Positions 25,398 through 40,200 of a stretch of 64,000 bases of DNA are shown one piece after another. The stretch comes from Corallococcus soli (GTDB taxonomy: Bacteria > Myxococcota > Myxococcia > Myxococcales > Myxococcaceae): contig NZ_JAAIYO010000010.1 of assembly GCF_014930455.1 (NCBI RefSeq), positions 124,001-188,000 of the forward strand, given 5' to 3'. The translations under genes and the position numbers were made by a program. Numbering within the stretch: position 1 is the stretch's first letter; each line of letters opens with the position of its first letter. The notes below the pieces were generated by a model that had not been told where the DNA came from, did no database searches, and saw only the letters and a program-made list of their open reading frames with translations.

Positions 25398-26246
25398 ATG
25401 CGCTTCACCCGCTATTGCCGCTCCATCCTGTTCACCCCGGCGCTCGCTGTGGATCGCTTCGAGCGAGGGCAGCAGTCCGGCGCGGACATCAGTCTGGTGG
25501 ACCTGGAGGACTCCGTTGCGGCGGCGCACAAGGACGCCGCCCGCCAGCACGCGGAGGCGTTCTTCACGGCGCCCCGGGTCGGGGAGAGCCGCCGCGCGGT
25601 GCGCATCAACTCCGTGACGCGCCATGAGGGCTTGCGTGACCTGCTGGCCCTGCGTGAGTACGCGGCGAAGCCCGACGCGATCATGATCCCCAAGGTGGAG
25701 TCGCCTCGCGACCTGGAGATCGTCGAACAGGTGCTGGGGCCCGAGTGCGCGAACGTGGACCTGCTCGCGCTGGTGGAGACGCCGCGCGGCATCGAGAACC
25801 TCGACGCCATCGTGTTCGCGACGCCCCGCCTCAAGGCGCTGGTGTTCGGCTCCGCCGACTTCTCCTTCAGCATCGGCGCGGCGCTCGCCTGGGAGCCCCT
25901 GCTGTACGCGCGCTCCCGGCTGGTGGCGGCCGCGCGCTCCGCGAACCTCCAGGTGGTGGACACGCCCCAGTTCGACATGGGCGACCTGGAGGGGCTGCGC
26001 GCGGAGTCCGCCCGCGCGCGCAGCCTGGGCTTCAGCGGCAAGGTGGCCATCCACCCGCATCAGGTGGAGATCATCAACAAGGCCTTCTCCCCGGACGAGC
26101 GCACCCTCCAGAAGGCGCGGAAGATCGTCGCGGAGAGCCAGGCCCGGGACGCGAACATCTGCGTCGTCGACGGCGCCATGGTGGGCACGCCGTTCATCGA
26201 AGCCGCCAAGCGCACGCTCGAGGACTTCGGCATCACCGAGGGCTGA
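25398..26246 (+). CDS. HpcH/HpaI-type CoA ester lyase (CitE-like)
   Basis: First gene of the operon, 282 residues, GGAGG at 25388-25392. It has the CitE/malyl-CoA lyase landmarks: 'RSILFTPAL' at the N-terminus, 'VDLEDSV', 'RAVRINS', 'AIMIPKVES' (Mg-binding region), 'LALVETPRGI' and 'KVAIHPHQVEIINKAF'. Family members cleave or form C-C bonds in malyl-CoA, citramalyl-CoA or related thioesters, using a TIM barrel and Mg2+. Together with the MaoC protein two genes on, it recalls the citramalyl-CoA lyase plus itaconyl/mesaconyl-CoA hydratase pair. This suggests handling of a branched dicarboxylyl thioester (inference). Substrate not known. Confidence 0.88.
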   Translation: MRFTRYCRSILFTPALAVDRFERGQQSGADISLVDLEDSVAAAHKDAARQHAEAFFTAPRVGESRRAVRINSVTRHEGLRDLLALREYAAKPDAIMIPKVESPRDLEIVEQVLGPECANVDLLALVETPRGIENLDAIVFATPRLKALVFGSADFSFSIGAALAWEPLLYARSRLVAAARSANLQVVDTPQFDMGDLEGLRAESARARSLGFSGKVAIHPHQVEIINKAFSPDERTLQKARKIVAESQARDANICVVDGAMVGTPFIEAAKRTLEDFGITEG

Positions 26247-26302
26247 CGCCCACCGCCTCCCATCCCCGTCTTTCCCGACCATTCCGCGCAGGAGGAGTCC
26301 GC

Positions 26303-27535
26303 ATGGCAACGAGCATTCCCGAGAGCGTCCTGGGGCCCCGGCGCTACCGCAACAACGAGAAGTTCGTCGGGCTGGGTGACGCCGGCTGGCAGCAGGCCGA
26401 GGACCACGGCCTCATCAACCTCAAGGTGGACTTCGAGTCCAACAACCAGCTCATCGACACGGCGACCCGGCACGCCTTCATGGTGCTGTGCTCGTGCTCG
26501 TACCTGGGCCTCAACCACCACCCGGCCATCCTCCAGGGCGCCATCACCGCGCTCCAGGAGGAGGGCACCATCGGCCTGGCGCTCTCCACGCTGCGCATCC
26601 GCCTGAGCCTGATGGCGCGGCTGGAAGAGGGGCTGAGGGATCTGTACGGCTGTCCGTCGCTGCCGGCCGCGTCGTGTACCGCGCTGACCGCGGGCATCCT
26701 GCCGCTGCTCGCGTCCGGACACCTGACGGAGGACGGGCAGCCGCGCGTCATGGTGTTTGATCGCTTCTGTCACTTCTCCATGGCGTACGTGAAGCCCATC
26801 GTGGGGGACGAGAGCCTGGTGCTGACCAGCCCGCACAACGACCTCAACTACCTGGAGGACGTCTGCAAGAAGTACCCGCGCGTCGCCTACGTGGCGGACG
26901 GCGCCTACTCCATGGGCGGGCTGACCGCGCTGGAGGGCCTGCTCCAACTCCAGGAGAAGTACGGCCTGTTCCTGTACTTCGATGACTCGCACTCGCTGTC
27001 CATCACCGGGAAGCACGGCGAGGGTTGGGTCCGCTCGCGCCTGAAGATGAACCCGCTGACGATGATCGTCGCGTCGCTGGCCAAGGCCTTCGGCAGCGCG
27101 GGCGGCGTGGCCATGCTGGGCAGCGAGAAGCTGTTCAACTTCCTCAACCGCAACGCGGGCCCGCTGGCGTGGTCGCAGAACCTCCAGGTGCCGAACATCG
27201 GCGCGTCGCTGGCCAGCATCGCGCTGCACAAGAGCCCGGAGCTGAAGACGCTCCAGGACAAGCTGGCGCGCAACATCGACTACTTCGACAGCCAGTTCCC
27301 GTCGCAGCACGCGGGCAACGGCATGCCCATCCGCAAGATAGAGGTCGGCGCGGAGGAGAAGGCCGTGCGCCTGTCCCAGGAGCTGTACCGGGCGGGCTAC
27401 TACTGCTCGGCGGTGTTCTTCCCCGTGGTGGCCAAGGGCGAGGCGGGCGTGCGCCTGATGATGCGCTCCGACATTGAACCGGACGAGCTGAAGCGCTTCT
27501 GCGCGACGGCGAAGGACATCATCTCCGGCTTCTGA
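26303..27535 (+). CDS. PLP-dependent alpha-oxoamine synthase-like enzyme (BioF/SPT/KBL family)
   Basis: A 410-residue fold-type I PLP enzyme, ATG 26303 with GGAGGA upstream. 'FDRFCHFSM' gives the His that stacks on PLP, 'FLYFDDSHSLSITGKHGEGWV' holds the Asp and His of the cofactor site, and 'ASLAKAFGSAGG' holds the Schiff-base Lys. Relatives condense an amino acid with an acyl thioester, losing CO2, to give an alpha-amino ketone. Here the usual 'GSR...H..LE' segment is replaced by 'LALSTLRIRLSLMARLEEGL', so substrate binding is probably unusual. With the ACP downstream, an acyl-ACP is the likely partner (inference). It is clearly not ordinary biotin BioF by context. Confidence 0.85.
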   Translation: MATSIPESVLGPRRYRNNEKFVGLGDAGWQQAEDHGLINLKVDFESNNQLIDTATRHAFMVLCSCSYLGLNHHPAILQGAITALQEEGTIGLALSTLRIRLSLMARLEEGLRDLYGCPSLPAASCTALTAGILPLLASGHLTEDGQPRVMVFDRFCHFSMAYVKPIVGDESLVLTSPHNDLNYLEDVCKKYPRVAYVADGAYSMGGLTALEGLLQLQEKYGLFLYFDDSHSLSITGKHGEGWVRSRLKMNPLTMIVASLAKAFGSAGGVAMLGSEKLFNFLNRNAGPLAWSQNLQVPNIGASLASIALHKSPELKTLQDKLARNIDYFDSQFPSQHAGNGMPIRKIEVGAEEKAVRLSQELYRAGYYCSAVFFPVVAKGEAGVRLMMRSDIEPDELKRFCATAKDIISGF

Positions 27536-27566
27536 AGCCATCCCCCTGAGCGCGAGGACACACGAC

Positions 27567-28088
27567 ATGGAGGGCACTGGCTACAAGCAGGTGGGACCGC
27601 AGCGCTACCGGGAGCTGCTGGGCTTCGCGTTCGAGGACTTCACCGTCGGGGACGTCTTCGAACACCGCCCCGGCCGCACGGTGACGGAGGCCGACAACGT
27701 GCTCATGAACACGCTGAGCCTCAACCCGTCCCCGCTGCACCTGGACGCGGCCTATTGCTCGCACACGCCGTGGGAGAAGCCGCTCATCTCCAGCCTGGTG
27801 ACGTTCAGCGTGGTGTGCGGCATGAGCGTGCGCAGCACCAGCGGCCGGGCGCTGGCGAACCTGGGGTGGGACCGCATCCGCCTCACGCACCCGGTGTTCG
27901 CCGGGGACACGCTGTACGCGGAGAGCCGCATCCTCGCCAAGCGCCTGTCCGCAAAGCGCGAGGGTGAAGGCATCGTCACCTGCGAGACGCGGGGGCTGAA
28001 GTCCACCGGGGAGGTGTTCCTCACGTTCGAGCGCAGCTTCCTCGTGCCCACGCGCGAGCGCGGTGTCGACGAAAGGGCCGGGTACTGA
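27567..28088 (+). CDS. MaoC-family (R)-specific hydratase/dehydratase
   Basis: A 173-residue hotdog-fold protein. 'RTVTEADNVLMNTLSLNPSPLHLDAAYC' is a MaoC hydratase-2 motif with Asp and the His of 'PLHLD'. The exact form 'TEADN....NP.PLHLD' recalls mesaconyl- and itaconyl-CoA hydratases more than the fatty-acid PhaJ type (from memory of the families). Those enzymes work with CitE-like lyases, and one is encoded two genes upstream. Alternatively it dehydrates a 3-hydroxyacyl intermediate on the ACP. It is followed after five bases by an oxidoreductase gene. Confidence 0.87.
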   Translation: MEGTGYKQVGPQRYRELLGFAFEDFTVGDVFEHRPGRTVTEADNVLMNTLSLNPSPLHLDAAYCSHTPWEKPLISSLVTFSVVCGMSVRSTSGRALANLGWDRIRLTHPVFAGDTLYAESRILAKRLSAKREGEGIVTCETRGLKSTGEVFLTFERSFLVPTRERGVDERAGY

Positions 28089-28093
28089 CCGTC

Positions 28094-29077
28094 ATGCGCG
28101 CCATCGTCTTCGAAGGCTCCGGGGGCCCGGAGGTGGTGAAGCTCCGCGACGTCCCCCGCCCGGTGCCCGGCGGCAACGCGCTGCTCGTGCGGGTGCACGC
28201 CACGGCGCTCAACCGCGCGGACCTGCTCCAGCGCGCCGGCGTCTACCACGTCCCGGAGGGCCAATCCGCCATCCCCGGCGTGGAGGTCGCGGGCACGGTG
28301 GAGGCGTGGGGCGAGGACGTGAAGGGCTTCACCCGGGGCCAGCGCGTGTTCGGCGTGGTGGAGGGCGGCGGATACGCGGAGTACTGCCTGCTGGACGCGG
28401 ACATGGCGCTGCTCATCCCGGAGGCCCTGGGCTTCGTGGAGGCCGCCGCCGCCGCCGAGTCCTGCCTCACCGCCAACGAGACGCTCTTCGAGCTGGGCGG
28501 GCTCAAGCCCGGACACACCGTGCTTGTGCACGCGGGGGCCAGCGGCATCGGCACGACGATGGTGCAGATGGTGAAGCACGTGGGCGCGACGGCGCTGTGC
28601 ACGGTGGGCACGCCCCGGAAGGTGGAGGCGCTGGAGCGGCTGGGCGCGGACGTGGCCATCGACTACCGGCGCCAGGACTTCGTGGCGGAGGTGATGGCGC
28701 GCACGCGCGGCGAGGGCGTGGACCTGGTGATGGACTTCGTGGGCGGCGCGTACTTGTCGCGCAACCTCTCCGTGCTGAAGCACGAGGGTTGTCTGGTGTT
28801 GGTGGGCCTGCTGGATGGGATGGCGGCGGAGCTGGACCTGCTGCGCGTCGTCCAGCGCCGGTTGCAGCTCAAGGGCTCGTCGCTGCGGCTGCGGCCCATG
28901 GTGGAGAAGCGGCAGGTCAACGCACGCTTCCGGCAGCGGTGGATGGAGGTGCTGGCGCGAGGAGGGCTGCCGCCCGTCATCCACGGGAGCTGGCCGCTGG
29001 AGGCGGTGGTGGAGGCCCACGCGGAGATGGAGGCCAATCGCAACATCGGGAAGATCGTCCTGACGGTGACGCCGTGA
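28094..29077 (+). CDS. zinc-free MDR oxidoreductase, quinone-reductase/enoyl-reductase type
   Basis: A 327-residue medium-chain reductase. The N-terminal GroES-like domain has 'ALNRADLLQRAGVYHVPEG' and 'IPGVEVAGTVEAWG'. The Rossmann part has 'VLVHAGASGIGTTMVQMVKHVGA', the NADPH-binding AxxGxxG of this family. 'NIGKIVLTV' ends the protein as in PIG3/QOR proteins. The zinc-binding Cys residues of alcohol dehydrogenases are missing. In polyketide and lipid pathways such enzymes are enoyl reductases. It would follow the MaoC step here, though its true substrate is unproven. Its TGA overlaps the next GTG by four bases. Confidence 0.88.
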   Translation: MRAIVFEGSGGPEVVKLRDVPRPVPGGNALLVRVHATALNRADLLQRAGVYHVPEGQSAIPGVEVAGTVEAWGEDVKGFTRGQRVFGVVEGGGYAEYCLLDADMALLIPEALGFVEAAAAAESCLTANETLFELGGLKPGHTVLVHAGASGIGTTMVQMVKHVGATALCTVGTPRKVEALERLGADVAIDYRRQDFVAEVMARTRGEGVDLVMDFVGGAYLSRNLSVLKHEGCLVLVGLLDGMAAELDLLRVVQRRLQLKGSSLRLRPMVEKRQVNARFRQRWMEVLARGGLPPVIHGSWPLEAVVEAHAEMEANRNIGKIVLTVTP

Positions 29078-29553
29078 CGGACCTGGGCGAGTTCCTGAAG
29101 CGCGAGCAGGTGGACGCGCAGCTGCTGACCCTGGCGACGCCGATGACGACGGCGGCGGCCGCCGCGCACGAGCTGGGCATCGCCGTGGGTGGCATCTTCA
29201 AGTCGCTGGTGTTCACCACGGACGCGGACGAGGTGCTGGTCGTCGTGCTGCCCGGCGACCGGCGCGTGGACTTCAAGGCGGTGGCGCGGGCGGCCGGCTG
29301 TCGCAAGGTCGCGTTCGCGAGCCGCGAGCGGGCGCTGGAGGCGACGGGCTATCCGCCCGGAGGCACGCCGCCCCTGGGCCATCCGCACCCGCTGCGCGTG
29401 TTCGTGGACGCGTCCGTCCTGGACTACCCGGAGGGCTACGGCGGCGGCGGGCGGCCGGAGCTGTTGCTGCGCCTGACGCCCGCGGAGCTGCTGCGCGTGA
29501 CGAAGGGCACCGTGGGCACCCTGAGCATTCCAACCGAAGCAACGACCCCCTAA
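29074..29553 (+). CDS. YbaK/ProX-type aminoacyl-tRNA deacylase-like protein
   Basis: A 159-residue protein from GTG 29074, coupled to the previous gene. 'GGIFKSLVF' carries the Lys of YbaK-family deacylases, and 'ATGYPPGGTPPLGH' is the conserved Gly/Pro loop of the active site. Known members hydrolyse mischarged Cys- or Ala-tRNA(Pro). Its location inside a lipid/polyketide-like operon is odd. It may be a passenger, or it may clear a wrongly loaded aminoacyl ester or thioester, for example on tRNA or the ACP (speculative). The family call is firm and the role is open. Confidence 0.85.
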   Translation: MTDLGEFLKREQVDAQLLTLATPMTTAAAAAHELGIAVGGIFKSLVFTTDADEVLVVVLPGDRRVDFKAVARAAGCRKVAFASRERALEATGYPPGGTPPLGHPHPLRVFVDASVLDYPEGYGGGGRPELLLRLTPAELLRVTKGTVGTLSIPTEATTP

Positions 29554-29567
29554 GCGAGGAGTTCCCC

Positions 29568-29840
29568 ATGCAGGACGACATCTCCAGAAGCCTCAAGAAG
29601 ATCCTGACGAACAACCTCTTCGTGGAGATCCCCGAGGAGCAGATTGGCGGAGACGACGGGTTGCAGTCCGTCGTCGGCCTGGACTCCGTGGGTTTCCTGG
29701 AGCTGCGGGTCATCTGTGAGGATCAGTTCGGCGTGAGCATCTCCGACCAGGACTTCGACACGGAGAACTTCCGCACGCTCAACCTGTTGTCGGCGCTCAT
29801 CGTGAAGCTCAAGGCCCAGCAACAGGGGGGCGCGAAGTGA
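29568..29840 (+). CDS. acyl carrier protein
   Basis: A 90-residue acidic protein with the phosphopantetheine site 'VVGLDSVGFLELRV'; the Ser of D-S is the attachment point. Helix 1 (SRSLKKILTNNL) and the later 'FGVSISDQDFD...FRTLNLL' match the ACP four-helix bundle. The GLDSVGF form, with V-G-F after DS, differs from the usual D-S-L/V-D/E-T/L of fatty-acid ACPs, so it is probably a dedicated carrier. It lies at the centre of the operon and overlaps the aminotransferase start by four bases. No PPTase gene is near. Confidence 0.92.
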   Translation: MQDDISRSLKKILTNNLFVEIPEEQIGGDDGLQSVVGLDSVGFLELRVICEDQFGVSISDQDFDTENFRTLNLLSALIVKLKAQQQGGAK

Positions 29841-31225
29841 AGGTGCCCGCCGCGGGGGAGAAGCTGGGGGCGGACGACGTCGCCCGCCTGCGCGCCGGCA
29901 TGGCGTTGCAGATGGACCACTATGGCGGCGGACGCCTGCCGTATGTCTGTCTGAAGGCGAAGGGCCTCGTGCAGCACATGGCGGCGCTGGAGGGGCCGGA
30001 CGCGGGCCGCGTCGTGGAGGTGCTGGACGCCAGCGGTGGCTACGCGAGCGCGTGCCTGGGCGCGGGCCATCCGCGCATGCAGGAGGCGCTGCGCGACGGC
30101 CTGGAGCGTACGGGCTATGTCACCGACGAGCTGGGCTCGTTGGAGCGCACGCTGCTCCTGGAGGAGCTGTTCGGCGCGCAGGGCCTCTGGGCGGACCGCT
30201 TCCCGGGGGACGCGTACCACGCGAGCGGCCGCAACTCCGGCTCCGAGGGCCTGGAGCTGGCGCTGCGCCTGGTGCTGGAGTCGAACTTCGACCGGCGGCG
30301 GATGGCGCCGAAGCCGGAGCGCTCGGAGCGGCGGACGATCCTCGCCTTCGAGGGCGCGTGGCACGGCTGGACGCAGGGCCTGGTGAGCCTGCTCAACCGC
30401 CGGCACTACCGGCTGGGGATGCCGCTGCCCGCGACGGAGGCGCTCGACGTGCAGTTCCTGCCGTTCGGGGAACTGGCGCACCTGGAGTCCTTCTTCGCGG
30501 AGCACGGGCGCAAGCTGGCCGGTGTGTTCGTGGAGCCCATCCAGGGGGACGCCGGCATCCTAGTGCCGCCCGCGGGCTACCTGCGACGGCTGGCCGCGCT
30601 GTGCCGCGAGCATGACGTGCTGCTGGTGGCGGACGAAGTGCTCACGTTCGCGAAGACGGGCCGCTTCTTCGGCATGACGGACGCGGAGGGGCCCATTCCC
30701 ACGGACATCACCGTCATCGGCAAGAGCCTGGGCATGGGCGTCGTCTCCACGTCCATGGTGATTGCCCGGCGCGAGCTGTCGGTGCGCTCCAGCGGCGCGG
30801 TGTCCACGTCGGATTTGCGCCCCCTGACGAGCGCGGTGATGCGCTCTGGCATCCAGTACATGTCCGGCGAGGGCCTGGTGGAGCGCACGGGCCCGCTGGG
30901 CGAGCTGCTGCGCGAGCGGCTGCGCAAGGACGTGGCGCAGGTGTTCCCGGAGGTGTTCCAGGAGGTCCGGGGCCTGGGCTACATGAATGGCCTGGAGCTG
31001 ACGGAGAAGGCGTCGGGGAGCCTGGGGCGGCTGCGGACGCGGCTGCTCGACGCGGGCATCTTCGTGGAGTTCATGGCGGGCGCGGGGCGACGTTCGCGGG
31101 GCTTGCGCTACCTGTTCCCTGCGATGCGCATCGCGCCGCCGCTCATCGCGGGGGAGGCGGACCTCCAGGAGATGGTCGCGCGCATCCAGCGCGGTGTGCG
31201 GGCCTTCGTGGAGTCCGGGTCGTGA
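29837..31225 (+). CDS. class III PLP aminotransferase
   Basis: A 462-residue fold-type I enzyme of the class III (omega-aminotransferase / glutamate-1-semialdehyde aminomutase) group. 'YHASGRNSGSEGLELALRL' lies in the phosphate-binding region. 'FEGAWHGWTQG' holds the aromatic/His pair seen in the family. 'LLVADEVLTFAKTGRFFG' has the D-E of the cofactor site, and 'ITVIGKSLGMGV' has the Schiff-base Lys. Such enzymes turn aldehydes or ketones into amines, so it could aminate a chain terminus or a beta-keto intermediate on the ACP. GTG 29837 overlaps the ACP stop; its TGA overlaps the thioesterase GTG at 31222. Confidence 0.9.
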   Translation: MKVPAAGEKLGADDVARLRAGMALQMDHYGGGRLPYVCLKAKGLVQHMAALEGPDAGRVVEVLDASGGYASACLGAGHPRMQEALRDGLERTGYVTDELGSLERTLLLEELFGAQGLWADRFPGDAYHASGRNSGSEGLELALRLVLESNFDRRRMAPKPERSERRTILAFEGAWHGWTQGLVSLLNRRHYRLGMPLPATEALDVQFLPFGELAHLESFFAEHGRKLAGVFVEPIQGDAGILVPPAGYLRRLAALCREHDVLLVADEVLTFAKTGRFFGMTDAEGPIPTDITVIGKSLGMGVVSTSMVIARRELSVRSSGAVSTSDLRPLTSAVMRSGIQYMSGEGLVERTGPLGELLRERLRKDVAQVFPEVFQEVRGLGYMNGLELTEKASGSLGRLRTRLLDAGIFVEFMAGAGRRSRGLRYLFPAMRIAPPLIAGEADLQEMVARIQRGVRAFVESGS

Positions 31226-31659
31226 CCGAGGCCGCGGTGCTACTGCCGGAGATCCTGCCCTCGCTGCGCAAGCGGGTGGAGCACGTGGACACGGATGCGT
31301 CTGGCGTCGTGCACTTCTCCCGCTACGCGTCGCTGCTGGAGACCGCGGGGCTGGAGGAGCTGGAGCGCCGGGGCGCGGGGCTCGCGGCCCTGACGGCGCA
31401 GGGCCTGGACCTGCGGGTGCGGGAGCTGCGCGTCAGCTACCGCGCGGCGGCGCGGTTCCAGGACTGGTTGGTGCTGGTGCCCTCCGTGGATCACGTGGGG
31501 CCCGCGAGCCTGAAGCTGGGCGTGAAGGTGTACCGCGAGGGCGCGGAGCCGTTGCTGCTCGCGTCCGGGAGTCTGGATTTCGCCGTCGTCACCCAAGAGA
31601 ACGGAGTGCCCGCATGTCTACCGCCGTCCCTCAGCAGCGCGCTCAAGCAGGCGCAGTGA
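31222..31659 (+). CDS. hotdog-fold acyl-thioesterase (4HBT/YbgC type)
   Basis: A 145-residue protein from GTG 31222, coupled to the aminotransferase gene. 'KRVEHVDTDASGVVHFSRYASLLETAGLEELERRG' is the YbgC/4-hydroxybenzoyl-CoA thioesterase signature, with the catalytic Asp of 'DTDASGVVHF'. It likely hydrolyses an acyl-ACP or acyl-CoA, either to release product or to proofread. The last 46 bases overlap the next gene in another frame, which is unusual overlap for this operon and implies tight coupling. Confidence 0.88.
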   Translation: MTEAAVLLPEILPSLRKRVEHVDTDASGVVHFSRYASLLETAGLEELERRGAGLAALTAQGLDLRVRELRVSYRAAARFQDWLVLVPSVDHVGPASLKLGVKVYREGAEPLLLASGSLDFAVVTQENGVPACLPPSLSSALKQAQ

Positions 31660-32138
31660 ATGAAGTGGAGCGCACGCCGAAGCCCCTGGGCTTCACGGCG
31701 CTGAAGCAGTGGCTGCGGCACCGCCACCCGATGATCTACCTGGACCGCATCGTGGACCATGAGCCGGGGAAGTTCCTGGACGCGCTCATCTGCATCTCCG
31801 GGAACATGGACAGCATCGCCGGGCACTTCCCGGAGCGGGCCATCTTCCCGGGCAGCCACCTCATCCAGTCCTACGCGCAGGCGGGCATCATCCTCTACCA
31901 GATGAGCACGTCGATGCTGGCCGAGGACGAGCTGACGCTCATCGGTTCGGTGGAGGCGCGCTTCCTCAAGGTGGTGGTGCCCGGAGACCAGGTGCTGCTG
32001 CACGTCCAGCAGAACCGGCTGGCGGGAGGGCTGTTCCACTTCACGGGCAAGGCCATGGTGGGGACGACTCGCGTGGCGGCGTTCCGCGCGAGCCTCGTTC
32101 GCTCCCGGGTCGCCGACCTGGGCTCGCCGCTGTGGTAG
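31614..32138 (+). CDS. FabZ/FabA-like hotdog protein with altered active site
   Basis: A 174-residue protein from ATG 31614, 46 bases before the thioesterase stop. The core 'WLRHRHPMIYLDRIVDHEPGK', '...GHFPERAIFPGSHLIQSYAQAGIIL' follows FabZ, whose motif is 'HRYPFLLVDR...GHFPG.PVMPGVL.VEALAQ'. The His is kept (HRHP). The catalytic Glu of 'VEALAQ' is aligned with Gln ('IQSYAQ'). The enzyme may therefore lack normal dehydratase activity, bind an altered substrate, or serve as a chain-holding or isomerase-like subunit. The N-terminal 30 residues are basic and variable. The fold call is good and the activity is uncertain. Confidence 0.82.
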   Translation: MSTAVPQQRAQAGAVNEVERTPKPLGFTALKQWLRHRHPMIYLDRIVDHEPGKFLDALICISGNMDSIAGHFPERAIFPGSHLIQSYAQAGIILYQMSTSMLAEDELTLIGSVEARFLKVVVPGDQVLLHVQQNRLAGGLFHFTGKAMVGTTRVAAFRASLVRSRVADLGSPLW

Positions 32139-33391
32139 CACCCGTCGTCGTCACGGGCGCCGCGTGGACGACGCCCCTGGGGCGCGGCCTGGACGCCGTG
32201 TGGCGCCGGCTGCTCGCGGGCGAGCATGGCTTCGTGGAGGTTCCGTCCCCGCACCGGCTGCGCAACACGCAGGCGGCCGTGGTGCCACGGCGGTCGGGCG
32301 GGCTCGCGGAGGCGCGCTCTGGAGGCGTCGCGGCGAAGGACGCGCCGGCGTCCCGCGCGCTGCCGACGCTTGAGGTCGAGCCGGAGAGAGCACGCTCGCT
32401 TTCGTTGGAGCGTGCCGCTGACAGCCAGGAGCCAGCGGGCCCTGCGGAGCGGTTGCGCTCGCTCGCGGTGGAGACCCTGCGGGAGGCCTTGGCGCACGCG
32501 GACCTGGCGGGAGACGGGACGCGCACGCTCTTCGTGCTGGGAACCAGCCTGGGGGCCTACCTGGACGATGAAGGCGAGCGGAACGCCCCGCTGCACCAGT
32601 GGGCCGACGCGGTGGTGGGGACGCTGGGAGCGAAGGCGCCGCCCGTGGTGCTGTCCACGGCGTGCTCGTCGGGTTCGGATGCGCTCGTGGTAGGGGCGGA
32701 GTGCATTCGCGCGGGCCTCGCGGACGTCTGTGTTTGCGGCGGCGTGGACATCCTGACGCCGAGCAAGCGATTGGCGCACTCCGCGCTGTCCACGTTGTCT
32801 CCGTCGCGTGCGCGGGCCTATGACACGCGGCACGACGGCATGATGCTGGGGGAGGGCGCGGCGTTCCTGGTGCTGGAGTCGGCGGCGCACGCGGAGCAGC
32901 GGTCGGCGCGCATCCTGGCGCGGCTGCGCGGTGTGGGCTCGGCCAACGACGCGGCGAGCATGACGTCACCGGATCCCGCGGCGGCGGGTGCGCGGCTGGC
33001 GATGGAGCGCTCCCTGGCGGATGCGGGACTCGCGGCGTCGGAGATTGGACTGGTCAATGGTCATGGCTCCGCGACGCCGGTGAACGACCGTGCGGAGGCC
33101 GCGGCGTTCCGGAGCGTGTTTGGCTCCGAGGGTGGGCCGCTCGTGTTCGCGACGAAGGGCGCCTTCGGTCACACGCTGGGGGCCACCGGGGCGATGGAGG
33201 CCATCGCGACCATCCTGGGGCTACGGGAGGGCATCGTTCCGCCCATCGTCGGACTGGAGCAGCCGGACCCCGACTTTCCCTGCCCGCTGTCCGTGGGCGC
33301 GCCGACCCGGCATGCGGCCCGGAAGGGCTTGAGCGTGACGCTGGGCTTCGGTGGCTTCGACACGTCGCTCGTCTTCGAGGTGGCGCGATGA
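32132..33391 (+). CDS. beta-ketoacyl synthase (type II, active Cys present)
   Basis: A 419-residue ketosynthase from GTG 32132. The catalytic Cys is in 'VVLSTACSSGSDAL'. The two His residues are in 'VNGHGSATPVND' and 'GAFGHTLGATGAMEA'. The FabF-like C-terminal 'VTLGFGGFDTSLVF' is present. About 50 residues (near 48-100) of low-complexity, Arg/Ala-rich sequence are inserted after the first strand, where FabF has a short loop. It would extend an acyl-ACP with malonyl-ACP by decarboxylative condensation. It overlaps both neighbours by a few bases and is followed by a half-size partner, as in two-subunit ketosynthases. Confidence 0.9.
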   Translation: MVAPVVVTGAAWTTPLGRGLDAVWRRLLAGEHGFVEVPSPHRLRNTQAAVVPRRSGGLAEARSGGVAAKDAPASRALPTLEVEPERARSLSLERAADSQEPAGPAERLRSLAVETLREALAHADLAGDGTRTLFVLGTSLGAYLDDEGERNAPLHQWADAVVGTLGAKAPPVVLSTACSSGSDALVVGAECIRAGLADVCVCGGVDILTPSKRLAHSALSTLSPSRARAYDTRHDGMMLGEGAAFLVLESAAHAEQRSARILARLRGVGSANDAASMTSPDPAAAGARLAMERSLADAGLAASEIGLVNGHGSATPVNDRAEAAAFRSVFGSEGGPLVFATKGAFGHTLGATGAMEAIATILGLREGIVPPIVGLEQPDPDFPCPLSVGAPTRHAARKGLSVTLGFGGFDTSLVFEVAR

Positions 33392-33954
33392 CGTCCCTGC
33401 CTTCGGTGGCCCTGCGCGGCAGCGCGGTGGTGTTCGCGGACGCGCCGAATCCGCACCTCGTCAAATGGAAGCCGTCGGTGCGCTACGCGGATCCGCTGTC
33501 CTGGGCGCTGGTCATGGCCGTGGGCGAGGCGACCGGAGCATTGGGTGAGGAGTTCACGCGCGCCGCGGACCGGTGTTCGCTCATCCAGGTGGGCGCGGTG
33601 GGCCCTCGTGAGACGTGGGCGCAGGTGGCGAGCGATGCCGCGCGAGGCTTCGCGTCCCCGCTGCGCTTCCCCGCGGCGACGCCGAGCGCCCCCACGGGCC
33701 TGTCCTGCATCGTCCATGGGCTGCGAGGCCCGACGCTCGCGCTGACGATGCCGGTGGCGACGGGCGCGGAGGTCGCGCTGGCGATGTCCGTGGCGTGGCT
33801 CCAGCGTGGGGTCGTGGACTGGGCCCTCATCGGCTCGGTGCTGGCGGTCGAAGGCCGACCACCGGGCGCGGGCTGCGTCGTCCTGTCCCGGGGAACCGGC
33901 CCTGGCGTCAGCGTGGATGTCGTCGCGCGGTCCCTTCAATTCCAAGCGGAGTGA
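33388..33954 (+). CDS. half-length ketosynthase-like protein (chain-length-factor type)
   Basis: A 188-residue protein overlapping the ketosynthase by four bases. It resembles only the N-terminal half of a ketosynthase: 'TPSAPTGLSCIVHGLRGPTLALTMPVATGAEVALAMSVAWLQRGVVDWALIGSV'. At the active-site position the Cys is missing (around 'MPVATGAEV'). Small Cys-less partners of this kind, about 190-250 residues, occur in aryl-polyene-type clusters (Ketoacyl-synt_2, from memory) and may set chain length. It is intact, with its own start and stop, and not a frameshifted remnant as far as can be seen. The next gene starts two bases after its stop. Confidence 0.78.
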   Translation: MTSLPSVALRGSAVVFADAPNPHLVKWKPSVRYADPLSWALVMAVGEATGALGEEFTRAADRCSLIQVGAVGPRETWAQVASDAARGFASPLRFPAATPSAPTGLSCIVHGLRGPTLALTMPVATGAEVALAMSVAWLQRGVVDWALIGSVLAVEGRPPGAGCVVLSRGTGPGVSVDVVARSLQFQAE

Positions 33955-33956
33955 AC

Positions 33957-35366
33957 ATGGCTTCACCTCTCCAGGAACTCGCGGGCGTTCCGCTGGCCAC
34001 CTTCCAGGCGTTCCTGGACCGGATCCGCGACCTCACCGAAGCGCACCCGACCGCCGACCGCGCCGTTTCGTCCCTGGCGGCCGGATGGATTGCCCGGGGG
34101 CTCAGGCCGGGGGATGTGGTGCTGCTCGCGCTGCCCAATGGCGTCGGCCTGCTGGCCCAGGTCTTCGCGGTGCTCGCGGCCCGGGGCGTCCCCGCGCTGG
34201 TGTCGCCGGCATCGCCCGCGGGCCGGCAGCAGTCGCTGGTGGATGCGTTGCCGGCGCGTGCGCTGGTGGCGATGCGCGCCCCCGCGCCGCACGCGGAAGG
34301 GGTGGAGCGCTTCGCCCTGGGTGGGGCGGAGGTGGCGCTGTTTCCGGACACCACGCCGCCGGGGGCCCAACCGGGGGAGATGGTGTTGCTCACGTCCGGC
34401 ACCTCCGGATTCGCGAGCGGCTGTGTGTTCGACCTGGCCGCGCTCTTCCGCAACGCGGACCGGCACGCGGACGCGGTGGGCCTGCGCGCGGGGGACACGG
34501 CCCTGGTGAACCTGCCGTTGTATTACTCGTATTCGATGGTCGCGCAGGCGTTCTCCGCGCTGCGGCGTGGGCTGGAGCTGGTCATCAGCGGGCCGCCGTT
34601 CCAGCCCGCGGCGTACCTGCGCCTCCTGGCGGAGCAGGGCATCACCGTGTCCGCGCTGACGCCGCTGCTGGTGCGCGGGTTGCTGCAACACGGGGAGGCC
34701 TTCCCTGAAGGGCTGCGGTGCCTGGGCGTGGGGGGGGACGTGCTCGCGCCCGAGCATGTGAAGCGGATGCTGCAAGCGCGGCCGGAGGGCGAGCTGTACC
34801 TGACCTATGGCCTCTCCGAGGCAGGGCCGCGCGTGGCGACGCTCGCCGCGCATGCGGAGCCGGAGCGCCGCTTCGCGTCCGTGGGATTGCCCCTGCCGGG
34901 CACGGAGGTGACGCTCGTGCCGCGTGGGCCGGATGGACAGCGGGAGCTGTTTGTCTCGTCAGACACGGTGATGAAGCGCCGCATCGGCATCGTGGAGGGG
35001 GAGAAGCAGCATGCGCTGCGAGGTCCCCGGCTGTTGGCCACGGGGGACGTGTTCGACATCGACGCGCAGGGCTACTTGTACTTCCAGGGACGCGTCTCCG
35101 ACTTCCTGGTGCGAGGCAGTGAGAAGATCAGCATGGCCTCCGTGCGGCGTCTGGCCATGATGCTCCCAGGCGTGCTCACCGCACGCACGCAGGTCATCAA
35201 GAGCGCGGAGGGGGACGACTACGAAGTGATCCTCACCGTGGCGGATGAACGCCGCTCCGTGGAGCAGCTGTCCCGCGACCTGTTCCGCCTGCTGCGCCTC
35301 GCGGAGCGTCCCCGCGCCGTGCAGGTGGTTTCGGCGGATGTCGCGGCGGCCTCCCTGCACAAATGA
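33957..35366 (+). CDS. AMP-dependent acyl ligase (ANL superfamily)
   Basis: A 469-residue adenylating enzyme. Core motifs: 'VLLTSGTSGFASGCVF' (A3, ATP-binding), 'LTYGLSEAGPRVATL' (A5), 'RLLATGDVFDIDAQGYLYFQGRVSDFLVRGSEKIS' (A7-A8 and hinge). The usual C-terminal Lys motif is reduced: the protein ends 'AAASLHK', so the only candidate catalytic Lys is the last residue. It probably activates a carboxylic acid and loads it on the ACP or CoA, giving the starter unit. The operon ends here, 27 bases before a convergent gene. The start could also be GTG 33951. Confidence 0.87.
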   Translation: MASPLQELAGVPLATFQAFLDRIRDLTEAHPTADRAVSSLAAGWIARGLRPGDVVLLALPNGVGLLAQVFAVLAARGVPALVSPASPAGRQQSLVDALPARALVAMRAPAPHAEGVERFALGGAEVALFPDTTPPGAQPGEMVLLTSGTSGFASGCVFDLAALFRNADRHADAVGLRAGDTALVNLPLYYSYSMVAQAFSALRRGLELVISGPPFQPAAYLRLLAEQGITVSALTPLLVRGLLQHGEAFPEGLRCLGVGGDVLAPEHVKRMLQARPEGELYLTYGLSEAGPRVATLAAHAEPERRFASVGLPLPGTEVTLVPRGPDGQRELFVSSDTVMKRRIGIVEGEKQHALRGPRLLATGDVFDIDAQGYLYFQGRVSDFLVRGSEKISMASVRRLAMMLPGVLTARTQVIKSAEGDDYEVILTVADERRSVEQLSRDLFRLLRLAERPRAVQVVSADVAAASLHK

Positions 35367-35393: not shown

Positions 35394-36140
35394 TTAGCGC
35401 CCCGAGCGTCCACCGATTTCCGGGAAGCGCTCATAGGCCCGCAGGAGCGCGGTCAGGTGGTCGGGTTTGTTGAAATCGAGAGGGGTGTCCGTGAGCCGGA
35501 CAACCCAGCCGCCTGTCTCCGTGCGCCGCGCCCGTGACACCAGCTCGGCATCGCGGGCCGCGTCTGGGAACCCGATGTTTCGTGCGGCAGCAGCCGACCA
35601 GTAGTTCAACCACCCGAGGTGGTGCGGAATCTCGGGCGAACGGATTTCATCTGGAGGGGTGAGCATGGGCAGCCCACGCGGTGAGAGCGCCGGCCCATGT
35701 GTTGTGTTGCGCATCTGCTGCGCGACTTCCGAGCCGAAACCCTTCGGCGACGCATGCCCCCAGAACGCGTGAGTTCCTTTCGCGATGCCCTCCAGCACAC
35801 GTGATGCCGCCGCGATGTCGAGCGGCAGCTTCGCATGGACCTGAAGCTGGGGCTGGCCCCCTGGGAGCAGGCTCGCGGGCCTTCGCAACCCCGTGATCGT
35901 CACCGGGTTGCTCTCGTCGCCATTGCATAGGAGGGGAAACTCTCCGCGCTGTTCTGCCTCTGCGAGCCATGCATCACGCTGAGGCAGCGCGACGAGCCGC
36001 CCTTCCTTGGAGACCTCCCACTCCAGTCGCAAGCCGGGCAGAGCCCTTTCCATTTCGTGGACGGCAGCCAGTGCGCGGCCGTCATCGCCCTCTAGCGCTG
36101 GCGCGTAGACAGAAATCAAGAGGCGACTTTGCATCGTCAT
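35394..36140 (-). CDS. putative immunity protein (Imm52/DUF5953-like)
   Basis: A 248-residue protein with the ATG in the complement of 36138-36140, overlapping the upstream stop by four bases; longer starts to 36248 would run far into the toxin gene. It has a beta-strand N-terminus 'QSRLLISVYAPAL' and later 'AFWGHASPKGFGSEVAQQMRN', 'EIPHHLGWLNYWSAAAARNIGFPD' and 'WVVRLTDTPLDFNKPDHLTALLRAYERFPEIGG'. These recall the myxobacterial Imm52/DUF5953 family (from memory). It has no signal peptide and is presumably cytoplasmic. By context it would neutralise the nuclease-like lipoprotein encoded just before it. Confidence 0.7.
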   Translation of the reverse strand: MTMQSRLLISVYAPALEGDDGRALAAVHEMERALPGLRLEWEVSKEGRLVALPQRDAWLAEAEQRGEFPLLCNGDESNPVTITGLRRPASLLPGGQPQLQVHAKLPLDIAAASRVLEGIAKGTHAFWGHASPKGFGSEVAQQMRNTTHGPALSPRGLPMLTPPDEIRSPEIPHHLGWLNYWSAAAARNIGFPDAARDAELVSRARRTETGGWVVRLTDTPLDFNKPDHLTALLRAYERFPEIGGRSGR

Positions 36141-37066
36141 CGTTCGCATCCCGTAACGACGAGATTGGGGGCAAGAGAAGGTTCCAGGTCGAGCAATGCT
36201 TCCCTGTGCGCGTGGGTGCTGACCCCGACGACGAAGCCATATCCACATGCACGCGCGATCCTGCGTTCTTCCAGCATCTCGGCCACCTGATCCTTGGCCA
36301 CCTGCTCCTGGAGGAAGTCACTGTAGGTGTCAAATCGGTCGGTCTTGATCTCCCAGAGGACGCGCACCCCGACTTGCAGCGCGTCGAAGTGCTTGCCGTC
36401 AACGAGCACGTCCATGCCCTGGTATCGGTTGGGCGGGACCCTATCGGCGCACGCGTTGTGCGCGCCGTCTCCGCCTCGGTGTGGCACCGGAATGGGCTCG
36501 CACCGGGGGTGGCGCACCCGGTCAAGAGGGGCCGGTGGCATCGGGGGACGCAAGCCCTGGCCGGATGGCTCCGGCTCCAGCTTGGGATTCCGTTTCGATA
36601 CAACTTCCTGGGGCGCCGCCTTCGTTCCTCGCGCGGTCGCTGTCTCCTCGGGATAGAGCTGACGTAGCTCATACGCATCCAGCTCCTCCTTGATGGCGGC
36701 AGCTACCACCACCACGCCAAGGATGACGATGGCTCCCACAACGACCTCGGGTGCGACCAGGACGCAGACGCCGAGTCCCATGACGGCCGCGTTCGCCGAG
36801 GCGACCGTGCATCTTCCCGTCGGGTCGTGAAACCGGACCCGGTCATGGTCGACCGACTGAAAGCACCGCTCCACCATCACGGCCCAGGGCTGGGCCGCTT
36901 CTTGGACGACGCAATGTCCACCGTCAGTCCAGGGCAGCTTCGCCGCTCGCTGGAGGTTGGCGATTCTCAGGCTCCGGGTTCCCTGCTCGACGGGAAGCGG
37001 CTTCGACGTAGCGCAGGCTGAAAGAAAGAGGAGGAGTGAGATGTACGCGCGGAAACGGATGACCAC
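36137..37066 (-). CDS. lipoprotein toxin candidate with nuclease-like C-terminus (DUF6310-like)
   Basis: A 309-residue protein. The signal 'FRAYISLLLFLSACATSK' ends in a lipobox (L-S-A-C). A long hydrophobic segment lies near 95-125 ('VMGLGVCVLVAPEVVVGAIVILGVVVVAAAI'), and a proline-rich linker spans about 150-200. The C-terminal domain (about 210-309) begins with paired Cys and has 'VDGKHFDALQVGVRVLWEIKTDRFDTYSDFLQEQVAKDQVAEML'. The D...xEIK pattern resembles a PD-(D/E)xK nuclease core. This fits the myxobacterial lipoprotein toxins that pass between cells by outer-membrane exchange, paired with the overlapping immunity gene downstream. Toxicity is inferred, not shown. Confidence 0.7.
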   Translation of the reverse strand: MVIRFRAYISLLLFLSACATSKPLPVEQGTRSLRIANLQRAAKLPWTDGGHCVVQEAAQPWAVMVERCFQSVDHDRVRFHDPTGRCTVASANAAVMGLGVCVLVAPEVVVGAIVILGVVVVAAAIKEELDAYELRQLYPEETATARGTKAAPQEVVSKRNPKLEPEPSGQGLRPPMPPAPLDRVRHPRCEPIPVPHRGGDGAHNACADRVPPNRYQGMDVLVDGKHFDALQVGVRVLWEIKTDRFDTYSDFLQEQVAKDQVAEMLEERRIARACGYGFVVGVSTHAHREALLDLEPSLAPNLVVTGCER

Positions 37067-37258: not shown

Positions 37259-40200
37259 TCAGGACGCCTGAGCGTCCAGCCCCATCGTCAGGTCCGGGTT
37301 CGCGAGCACCGCGTCGAGCACGCGCATGAAGTCCGCGTGGATGCCCTCGGCGGTGCGTGCATCGAACAGGTCGGTGTTGAACTCCAGCACGCCGGAGAAG
37401 CCTCCGGCCAGTTCGGTCAGGGACAGGGCCAGCTCGTAGGTGACGGAGCCGCGGTTGACCTCCACGGGTGACACCGTGAGGCCCGGCAGCTCGAACGGGG
37501 CTTCCGGCGCGTTCTGCAGGACGAACATCGCCTGGAACACCGGGGAGCGGTTCACGGGCAGCTCGACGCCCAGTGAAACCACGATCTGATCCACGGGGAC
37601 CTCCTGGTGCGCGTAGGCGCCCAGCGTCTCCTCGCGCACGCGCTGGAGCAGCGTGCGGAACCCCGGGCTTCCTCGCAGGTTGACGCGCAGGCACAGGCCG
37701 TTCACGAACATGCCGATGAGCGGCTCCACCTCCGGGAGCAGCCGGTTCGCGATGGGCGACCCGATGATGACCTCCTCCTGGCCGGAGCGGCGCGCGAGCA
37801 CGACGCCGAACGCGGACAGCATGGCCATGAACGGGGTGACGTTCTCACGCCTGCACAAGGCATGGAGCGCGTCGCTGCGGTCGCGGCCCAGGTGGACCTC
37901 GCGGTGGGTGCCGTTGAACGTGCGCGCCGGAGGCCGGGGACGGTCGGTGGGGAGCTGAAGCTCCGTGGGCGCCCCCGCGAGCGACTGCTGCCAGTACGCC
38001 AGGCGCCGGGACAGCTCCGTCCCGATGAGCCACGTCCGCTGCCACGCCGCGTAGTCCGGATACTGCACGACGAGCGGCGCCAGGTCGGGTGCACGCCCCT
38101 GGGCCAGCGCCGAGTACAGCACCCCCAGCTCCCGGGCGATGACGCCCATGGACCAACCGTCCGCGGAGATGTGGTGCACGCAGATGAGGAGCAGGTGCTC
38201 GTCGTCCTTCACGCACAGGAGGGACGCACGCACCAGCGGATCGCGTGTGAGGTCGAACGGCGTCTGCGCATCCGTGTGGATGTGACGCCACGCCGCGCCC
38301 TCCGCGTCGGGCTGCTCGCGGAGGTCCTCGAAGCGCCATGGGAACTCGCCGGCGGGAGTGACCCGCTGCACGAGCTGGCCGTCCTCTTCCGAGAACCGGA
38401 CCCGCATGGACTCGTGCCGCTCCAGCAAGGCCTGCAAGGCGCTACGAAGCGCGTCGACCCGCACCGGACCCCGGAGCCGGTAGCCGATGGGGATGTTGTA
38501 GGCGCTCGACGTGGGAGCCCGCAGGAAGAAGCGGTACAGCCGCTCCTGCGAGTACGACAGCGGGAGCGCCCGGTCGCGAGGCGCGCGAACCAGTGGCGGC
38601 ACCGCGCGGGGACCGTCCTCCGGAACGAGCGTGCCCAGGTGCTGCGCCAGCTCCGCGACTGTGGGGCCGGTGAAGAGGACACGAAGCGCGAGCTCCGCGC
38701 CAAGCTCCGCGCGGATCCGCGAGACCACCTGGGTGGCGAGGAGGGAGTGGCCGCCGAGGTGGAAGAAGTTGTCGTGGAGTCCGACGCGTTCCACGTCGAG
38801 GAGTGAGGCCCAGAGGCGGCAGAGGGCGACCTCGGTGGGCGTGCGAGGCGGGACGTAGGAGAGGGCGTCACCGCGAGCGGGCTCTGGAGCGGGCAGGGCG
38901 CGGCGGTCGACCTTGCCGTTGACGGTGAGAGGGAGGGAGGCGAGCGGGGTGAAGGAGGCAGGCACCATGTGCTCGGGGAGGCGCTCGCGCAGCCAGGCTC
39001 GCAGCTCTGAGAGTTCGGGGAGAGCGTCGTGGGCGACGAGGTAGGCGGCGAGGCGCCGGTCGCCGCCGGCCTCTCGGGCGATGACGGAGGCGTCCTTGAT
39101 GGCGGGGTGGAGGCGAAGGGCCTCTTCGATTTCGCCCAGCTCGACGCGGTAGCCGCGCACCTTCACCTGATGGTCGGCGCGCCCGAGGTATTCGATGCGT
39201 CCGTCGGGGAGGAAGCGGGCGAGGTCGCCTGTCTTGTAGAGGCGAGCGCCGGGGACGGAGGAGAAGGGGTTGGGAAGGTAGGTGCGGGCGGTGAGCTCGG
39301 GGCGGTTGAAGTAGCCGCGACCGAGGCGCTCGCCGGAGACGTACAGCTCGCCCGGGACACCCAGGGGGACGGACTGGAGAAGCGCGTCGAGCAGGAAGAG
39401 GGGACCGTTGGAGAGCGGGCGGCCAATGGGCACGGGGAAGCCGAGGGCCGGCGGCGAATCCACCAGATGGAAGGAGGAGAAGACGGTGCACTCGGTGGGG
39501 CCGTAGCCGTTGACGAGGCGCTTGGGCGTGCCGTGCTGGAGGACTTCGCGCAGGGCGAGCGGATCCGCGGCTTCACCTCCGAAGACGAGCGTATGCAGGC
39601 CCGCGAAGGCTGCGGGCACCTGCCGCGCGAGCAGGTGAAGCACGGCGGTGGTGAGGAACAGGGTTGAGACGCGGGCGTCTTGGACCTGCGCCACGAACTC
39701 GTGGGGCGAGTGCGCGGGATTGGCGGTGATGCCGATGAGGTGCGCGCCGTGCAGCAGCGCGCCCCAGATTTCGAAGGTGCTGGGGTCGAAGGAGGCGTTG
39801 GAGGCCTGGGCGACGCGGTCCTCGGGCGTGAAGGGATGGAGGAGCGGGTCGAAGGCGAGGGCGAGGATGCCCCGGTGGAGGATGGCGCTGCCCTTGGGCC
39901 TGCCGGTGGAGCCAGAGGTGAAGATGACGTAGGCGAGGTTCTCTGGCCCGGAGGTGCGCGGCAGGGGCTCGGTGGAGAGTCGACCCAGCGACTCCGCTTC
40001 CGTATCCAGGCAGACGGTGGCGCCGGAGAACGCAGGCAGTTGCTGGCGCTTGTGCTCATGGACGAGCAGGACGCTGACGCGCGCATCCTGGAGCATGAAG
40101 GCCAGGCGCTCGGCGGGATGGGACGCATCAAGGGGCAGGTAGGCGCCGCCGGCCTTGAGGACGGCGAGCATGCCAACGATGAGGTCCGGGGAGCGCTCGA

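Follow-up and report, generated by a model that had tools for sequence, protein, structure and literature searches.

The window analyzed here is a stretch of 64,000 nt from Corallococcus soli (NZ_JAAIYO010000010.1, positions 124001-188000; genome 9.44 Mb), in which positions 25398-35366 hold a run of twelve genes on the forward strand (genes 1-12, Table 1). All twelve were returned with the same ends by a codon-usage gene caller, whose training set included six of them along with other genes of the window, and they are separated by gaps of 56, 31, 5 and 14 bases or joined by six overlaps of 4 bases and one of 7 bases. Both the calls and the spacing thus bear out an original prediction, made from the DNA letters alone, of a same-strand operon of this composition, and each of the families which it had named for eleven of the genes was recovered with Pfam and NCBIfam; the twelfth, left unnamed, is gene 5. 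As that prediction required, the neighborhood is conserved rather than scattered in relatives: the order of all twelve genes is kept in 7 of the 16 searched genomes of the genus (that of the window counted), and hence the run is not a chance assemblage. In one of the seven, the metagenome-assembled genome G007, the match to gene 9 falls into two overlapping pieces. The boundary at 25398-35366, however, proved too narrow, as a nonribosomal peptide synthetase (NRPS) gene on the reverse strand is part of the real unit. Below, G-numbers denote genomes (G000 being that of the window) and L-numbers loci or stretches, g1 is Corallococcus, and g41 is one genus of Myxococcota.

Table 1. Genes of the C. 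soli locus and its surroundings, with positions in the window and the matches or motifs behind each assignment
Gene	Assignment	Position	Strand	Evidence
1	HpcH/HpaI (CitE/RipC-like) aldolase-lyase, KtmA-like	25398..26246	+	PF03328 5e-40; RipC model 252 bits, cut-off 375
2	PLP (pyridoxal phosphate) alpha-oxoamine synthase (AOS), KtmB-like	26303..27535	+	NF005697 497 bits, cut-off 342
3	MaoC/RipB-like hydratase/dehydratase, KtmC-like	27567..28088	+	PF01575 5e-17; RipB model 207 bits, cut-off 340
4	MDR (PIG3-type) reductase, proposed KtmF role	28094..29077	+	TIGR02824 373 bits, cut-off 297
5	YbaK/ProXp-type aminoacyl-tRNA deacylase	29074..29553	+	PF04073 (tRNA_edit) 2e-30
6	AmcB, acyl carrier protein (ACP)	29568..29840	+	NF058660 108.5 bits, cut-off 80; LDSV motif
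7	AmcC, class III aminotransferase	29837..31225	+	NF058664 723.9 bits, cut-off 600
8	AmcD, 4HBT thioesterase	31222..31659	+	PF03061 2e-11; assigned by family and position
9	AmcE, hot-dog decarboxylase	31656..32138	+	NF058663 251.8 bits, cut-off 140; GHFP histidine
10	AmcF, ketosynthase (KS)	32132..33391	+	NF058662 508.9 bits, cut-off 325; TACSSG cysteine and two histidine motifs
11	AmcG, cyclization factor (half ketosynthase)	33388..33954	+	NF058659 106 bits, cut-off 80
12	AmcH, 2-oxoglutaryl-ACP ligase	33951..35366	+	NF058661 563 bits, cut-off 370; TSGTSG and YGLSE motifs
	DUF5953 gene	35394..36248	-	
	NRPS, 2357 aa, C remnant-A-T-C-A-T-C, terminal C domain	37259..44332	-	Pfam and motifs
	HD-CE + HATPase protein, 995 residues	45843..48830	-	

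Genes 6-12 drew in the NCBIfam equivalogs named for amipurimycin/cispentacin: six of these models matched (AmcB, AmcC, AmcE, AmcF, AmcG and AmcH), all six above their cut-offs, and along the DNA the genes follow one another from B to H. No AmcD model was seen among the NCBIfam matches, and gene 8 is identified by its family and by its position between AmcC and AmcE, which is the same in other amc loci. A motif scan revealed intact active-site motifs in the window proteins, in the form of the ACP serine, the KS cysteine and histidines, the AmcE histidine, the PLP lysine of the aminotransferase and the core of the ligase. Gene 11 had been predicted to be a half ketosynthase; it has no Pfam match, yet it exceeds the cut-off of the AmcG model, and its predicted structure (mean pLDDT 78) resembles those of ketosynthases and chain-length factors (349 PDB chains at E<=0.001), the top match being a 203-residue ketosynthase with a TM of 0.57 and 16% identity. 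AmcG is accordingly modelled here as a truncated ketosynthase. Judged by these matches, genes 6-12 are AmcB-H, the characterized seven-gene cispentacin pathway, and the assignment of cispentacin as the building block that they would make is strong.

In the available text of PMC10698177 (Hibi 2023), the Streptomyces AmcB-H proteins are described as having been reconstituted in vitro to turn 2-oxoglutarate into cispentacin by way of a single C2 extension, with reduction by the host FabI and malonyl loading presumably by FabD; Stigmatella and Corallococcus are already named there as amc carriers. Its main text, the clusters being listed in figures and supplements, contains none of the words aldolase, YbaK, NRPS, nonribosomal or resistance. 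The original prediction had listed a ketoreductase and a malonyl acyltransferase as missing: there is indeed no ketoreductase among the twelve proteins, but on the description in that paper neither activity is needed from the locus, as FabI and presumably FabD of the host serve instead. The locus also stands apart from the highly reducing type II polyketide synthases and aryl polyene clusters, since it has no ketoreductase and its KS pair corresponds to AmcF and AmcG. All seven genes have counterparts in amcB-H of Streptomyces sp. SN-C1 (cispentacin/amipurimycin), six of them scoring above the curated cut-offs, but the Corallococcus set has genes 1-5 and an NRPS attached to it, whereas amipurimycin is a peptidyl nucleoside. 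As far as the description in PMC10698177 goes, cfa1-5 of coronafacic acid are counterparts of the ACP, AmcE, AmcF, AmcG and AmcH, and the Corallococcus locus differs in having the aminotransferase and thioesterase (AmcC and AmcD).

The first four genes recall the ktm genes for ketomemicin. For comparison we drew ktm loci from 160 genomes of the genus to which Micromonospora sp. KC213 belongs (27 with an AOS profile match at E<=1e-30). In four of the loci (L207, L211, L212 and L219) we noted six families, namely ATP-grasp ligase, MDR, aldolase, AOS, MaoC and amidinotransferase, which were read with Pfam for L207 and L211 and with tblastn for the other loci; in L207 the amidinotransferase homologue (34%) lies on the opposite strand. 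The ktm locus is incomplete in L210, and neither KtmD nor KtmE was matched in L220. The six families are those listed for ktmA-F in the available text of PMC11943689, where ktm is described as NRPS-independent. Genes 1, 2 and 3 are respectively 52-53%, 60-61% and 66-68% identical to their counterparts in the four loci. Gene 2 carries the motifs SLAKAFG, DDSH and HFSM, which we take to have their usual roles in AOS proteins. In phylogenetic trees genes 1-3 join the ktm loci and those of Lentzea, apart from the NRPS-linked Myxococcaceae copies that have no amc genes, with supports of 96/94 (AOS), 99/99 (MaoC) and 85/89 (aldolase, a weakly supported fork that was not starred). These trees used 40 of 54 AOS, 34 of 44 MaoC, 32 of 42 CitE and 42 of 56 AmcC rows, the dropped rows being mostly near-duplicates, and the rows for Lentzea, L220, L217, L229, L053 and L055 were flagged as long. 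Searches of the PDB with genes 1-3 found relatives, none of which is named for a ketomethylene pathway. On these likenesses the assignment of genes 1-4 as probable makers of a ketomethylene unit is good.

The searches also drew in several loci of a related kind. L208, L209, L215 and L216, from the Micromonospora genus, hold an AOS at 40-41%, an aldolase at 35-37% and a MaoC at 50-52% and appear to be an uncharacterized cousin of ktm; L208 also has ornithine cyclodeaminase-like, cupin/JmjC and M24 peptidase genes, and in G358 the cousin and a ktm locus occur in one genome. In two further genomes of that genus (L213 and L214) the AOS, aldolase and MaoC genes are followed by three genes of 291-316 residues, and the ktm ligase and amidinotransferase were not found. 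In Corallococcus itself, L048-L052 and L056-L058 have an AOS paralogue at 54-56% with no aldolase or MaoC match in the stretch; its neighbors in L050 are alpha/beta hydrolase, ornithine cyclodeaminase-like and 2OG-Fe(II) oxygenase genes, suggesting another undescribed aminoketone locus.

We then considered how the amc and ktm-like parts are distributed. The amcC gene was found in 26 of 195 Myxococcota genomes, in 20 of which (seven g1, two g8, eleven g41) the aldolase, AOS, MaoC and MDR genes lie beside amc. In one more g41 genome, G146, the AOS, MaoC and MDR genes precede AmcB-C on a 3.3 kb stretch of a second contig, where the aldolase was not seen. MaoC copies of at least 82% occur in exactly these 21 genomes, here termed hybrids. 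In each of the 21, no more than 2 kb separates the NRPS from AmcH, and in the 12 hybrids of g41 the NRPS comes after AmcH on the same strand, with a length of 1605-1626 residues and the arrangement T-C-A-T-C (thiolation, condensation and adenylation domains) in the three that were read. Conversely, among 23 genomes with a second type of MaoC at 60-65% we examined seven loci with AOS, aldolase and MaoC but no amc in the stretch (L229 of G147, with MaoC at 46% and aldolase at 30%, was left out of this count): an NRPS is adjacent in six, and an MDR of the gene 4 type in five. The existence of such loci shows that an NRPS of this kind works with the ketomethylene set.

The window NRPS ends in a C domain, and no thioesterase domain was found in it with Pfam or by motifs. 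Its two A domains are 94% identical to each other (93% in G005), as against 86-88% between these two genomes, which is a sign of homogenization and perhaps of a single substrate. The substrate-specifying letters, read from motif anchors at positions that we take to be the standard ones, are DPFFVGGVF in 8 of the 9 A domains read from myxobacterial hybrids, the ninth having F for V, and match exactly no A-domain code known to us. This string occurs in none of eight A domains read from five NRPSs of amc-less loci, which gave DAFWLGGTF three times, DALWLGGTF once and DVQ..QVV four times; we presume the first two to specify valine and the last proline. Six amc-less Myxococcaceae loci (L225, L226, L228, L230, L054 and L055) with NRPS, AOS, aldolase, MaoC and mostly an MDR form a wider NRPS-ketomethylene family, five of them having what we take to be Val-like or Pro-Pro-like codes.

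A comparable union was found outside the myxobacteria. Lentzea xinjiangensis is the one among 28 non-myxobacterial amc loci in which a MaoC (72%), an AOS (58%), an aldolase (53%), an MDR (31%) and an NRPS stand beside amc; an AOS at E<=1e-30 was found in Lentzea only among the 15 of these 28 genomes that were searched. In the trees the Lentzea AOS falls with the ktm proteins (95/93) and the AmcC with those of Kutzneria and Streptomyces (100/98); its MDR is 56% KtmF-like, and its NRPS has a thioesterase-like stretch at the end, as read by eye; the MaoC tree does not settle the placement of Lentzea. The first A domain reads DAYWIGGTF and the second is different again (read by eye), the latter presumably being a hydroxyphenylglycine code. 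Since the AOS and AmcC have different affinities and the NRPS end and the MDR differ, the amc-ketomethylene union was probably assembled twice, separately in Lentzea; a single origin, which we had considered, is disfavored by both trees. This probable assembly on two occasions is the best argument for both units meeting in one molecule.

These observations make it likely, in our estimate, that the locus is a three-part cluster for an NRPS-built pseudopeptide containing a ketomethylene isostere and cispentacin, and they speak for a hitherto undescribed natural product of peptide type and not for an amino-lipid. Judging by the families of the proteins, AmcH would load 2-oxoglutarate onto AmcB, AmcF-AmcG would extend it by one C2 unit, taken from malonyl-AmcB, and form the five-membered ring, AmcE would decarboxylate, the FabI of the cell would reduce, AmcC would aminate and AmcD would release cispentacin, all of these being steps shown for the Streptomyces enzymes. 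By analogy with ketomemicin and arphamenine, gene 1 would join a 2-oxo acid and an acyl-CoA nucleophile, gene 3 dehydrate and gene 4 reduce the product to a substituted succinyl-CoA; gene 2 would then form a 5-amino-4-oxo acid from this and an amino acid by a condensation that releases CO2. The order is taken over from ketomemicin, for which the primary paper is Kawata 2017. That paper is cited in the available texts of PMC9239090, PMC11906848 and PMC10367076. The NRPS would activate one or two amino acids, and its terminal C domain, standing where a thioesterase could be, would transfer the peptide onto a free amine, most probably that of the ketomethylene amino acid and/or cispentacin. We infer the NRPS substrates, the joining order, the connectivity, the product and the role of gene 5 from these assignments. 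The amine or amino-ketone that had been predicted as product would thus stand, the amine through the cispentacin set and the aminoketone by inference, but not the chain building: AmcF-AmcG perform one C2 extension and a ring closure, and nothing among the twelve genes points to a lipid.

Several observations weigh against this reading. Five of the 26 amc carriers lack genes 1-3: G117, G120 and G106 have the YbaK-type gene and amc, and G032 and G112 amc only; upstream in G120 there is also an NRPS match of 45%. The trees were midpoint-rooted and included no RipB/RipC, BioF or housekeeping outgroup, and the closest AOS proteins outside the hybrids are the Corallococcus paralogues (96/94), which have no aldolase or MaoC found nearby, followed by ktm. 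The first C domain of the NRPS is degenerate in the Corallococcus/Archangium hybrids, that of the window NRPS having no HHxxxDG motif, and in the nine hybrids of these two genera the NRPS is convergent with AmcH, at 19 to 1899 bases from it. KtmD (ATP-grasp ligase) and KtmE (amidinotransferase) gave no tblastn match at 1e-4 in the 64-kb window; therefore, we do not class the locus as a ktm cluster but as one sharing its ketomethylene part. Gene 4 is just 30% identical to the KtmF-like protein of L211 and is of the PIG3 type, and hence would be an analogue of KtmF from another MDR branch. Thus, relative to ketomemicin ktmA-F (Micromonospora, Salinispora and Streptomyces mobaraensis) and arphamenine, the locus has in common an aldolase, an AOS and a MaoC dehydratase that cluster with their ktm counterparts, as well as an MDR, but differs in the branch of the MDR and in lacking the ligase and amidinotransferase, and its peptide bonds would be made by the NRPS.

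It could be argued that two products share the locus, with genes 6-12 supplying free cispentacin and genes 1-4 and the NRPS a separate ketomethylene peptide. Each half does occur alone, amc without genes 1-3 in the five carriers named above and AOS, aldolase and MaoC without amc in seven loci, and the hybrids retain AmcD, which frees cispentacin. Against this stand the continuation of the run on one strand through the NRPS in all 12 g41 hybrids, the comparable union in Lentzea and the DPFFVGGVF letters of the myxobacterial hybrids, unlike those of the amc-less NRPSs, and we regard the separation of products as unlikely. We consider it more doubtful still that gene 4 takes the place of FabI, as an enoyl reductase dedicated to the AmcB-bound cyclopentenone. 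The characterized pathway borrows FabI, gene 4 is weakly KtmF-like, and G106 has an MDR (33%) directly after AmcH in the absence of genes 1-3; however, copies at 52-55% go with the AOS set in five of the seven loci without amc, and no MDR match was found in the other four carriers that lack genes 1-3.

The best NCBIfam matches of genes 1 and 3 are the itaconate-degradation enzymes RipC and RipB, which would make these genes unrelated to the product. We regard this as very improbable given that both score far below the cut-offs of these models, as do the corresponding proteins of the L207 ktm locus, and both move with the AOS. Least credible is the amino-lipid or polyketide chain of the original prediction, which we dropped once genes 6-12 had matched the AMC models. 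Its appeal lay in the presence of ACP, KS, half KS, dehydratase-fold, reductase and thioesterase families, but all of these except the reductase belong to AmcB-H, for which one extension and a cyclization in vitro are described in the available text of PMC10698177, and the twelve proteins include neither a ketoreductase nor a lipid enzyme.

Gene 5, whose closest solved relatives are PDB 1wdv and 2cx5, shares the tRNA_edit domain of the YbaK/ProXp trans-editing family but differs in being a second, cluster-bound copy that forms a group of its own. An ordinary YbaK at 35-38% is present once in each of 12 myxobacterial genomes tested, G117 having a further 38% copy, and a second type (at least 58%) is found in seven of them (G000, G013, G005, G102, G117, G120 and G106), always at the amc locus directly before AmcB; five aligned cluster YbaKs form one group against nine others (0.985). 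Gene 5 would be a dedicated aminoacyl-tRNA deacylase, plausibly removing cispentacin from mischarged tRNA. Our hypothesis of self-protection by this means, with support in Myxococcaceae only, is prompted by the function of the YbaK family in clearing mischarged tRNA and by the inhibition of isoleucyl-tRNA synthetase by a cispentacin analogue, as stated in the available text of PMC10698177. It is weakened by the presence of the cluster YbaK at the amc locus in only 12 of 26 carriers: it was not found in the amc stretch of the other 14 (g41 and g18), four of which (G140, G131, G141 and G032) were checked and have the ordinary copy only, and the g41 hybrids thus do without it. Among the 28 non-myxobacterial amc loci a YbaK lies near amc in two (Couchioplanes and Polycladospora), and because both group with ordinary YbaKs we limit the claim to Myxococcaceae and reject YbaK as a cispentacin marker across bacteria. 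Among the matches listed in open-licence literature, taken at the level of titles and abstract starts, we found no precedent for editing enzymes as self-resistance. In its most specific form, the proposal would have the DPFFVGGVF domain activating cispentacin, the terminal C domain capturing the ketomethylene amino acid and gene 5 clearing cispentacin from tRNA to protect the producer. We offer this version as a tentative guess, unlikely to hold in full; the Lentzea A domains read differently, which speaks against activation by the A domain, and cispentacin must enter another way there.

While the parts are known, we found no report of a combination of amc, a ketomethylene set and an NRPS in the literature searched. 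In open-licence literature we found no report joining cispentacin with ketomemicin or carbonylmethylene, ketomethylene with myxobacteria, or Corallococcus with pseudopeptide terms; cispentacin with Corallococcus gave only Hibi 2023, and the weaker search for aminocyclopentane with myxobacteria or NRPS gave no report of the combination among the matches listed. The claim that no characterized cluster has this gene set therefore stands in that no published match to the whole was found, but 7 of the 12 genes are the characterized AmcB-H. We know of no earlier NRPS route to ketomethylene peptides. Ketomemicins and arphamenines are called the only known natural ketomethylene pseudopeptides in the available text of PMC11943689. 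The ketomethylene gene set resembles those that build protease-resistant pseudopeptides, and, if the proposal is true, the myxobacterial NRPS version in three genera of the sample and its Lentzea counterpart would be a further family of likely protease inhibitors, in which cispentacin, an antifungal amino acid, is tied to a peptide scaffold. Mass spectrometry could then be directed at a defined class of structures, and the tRNA-editing gene turns self-protection into a specific hypothesis that can be tested.

Two neighboring genes may be mentioned. The DUF5953 gene between AmcH and the NRPS has a match in G013 and none in G009 and G007, in which the AmcH-NRPS gap is about 1.7 kb, or in G002, G005 and G015, in which the NRPS abuts AmcH. 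The gene for the HD-CE + HATPase protein gave no match in a PADLOC scan; it lies in a stretch of 50% GC inside a region of 70% GC and was probably acquired.

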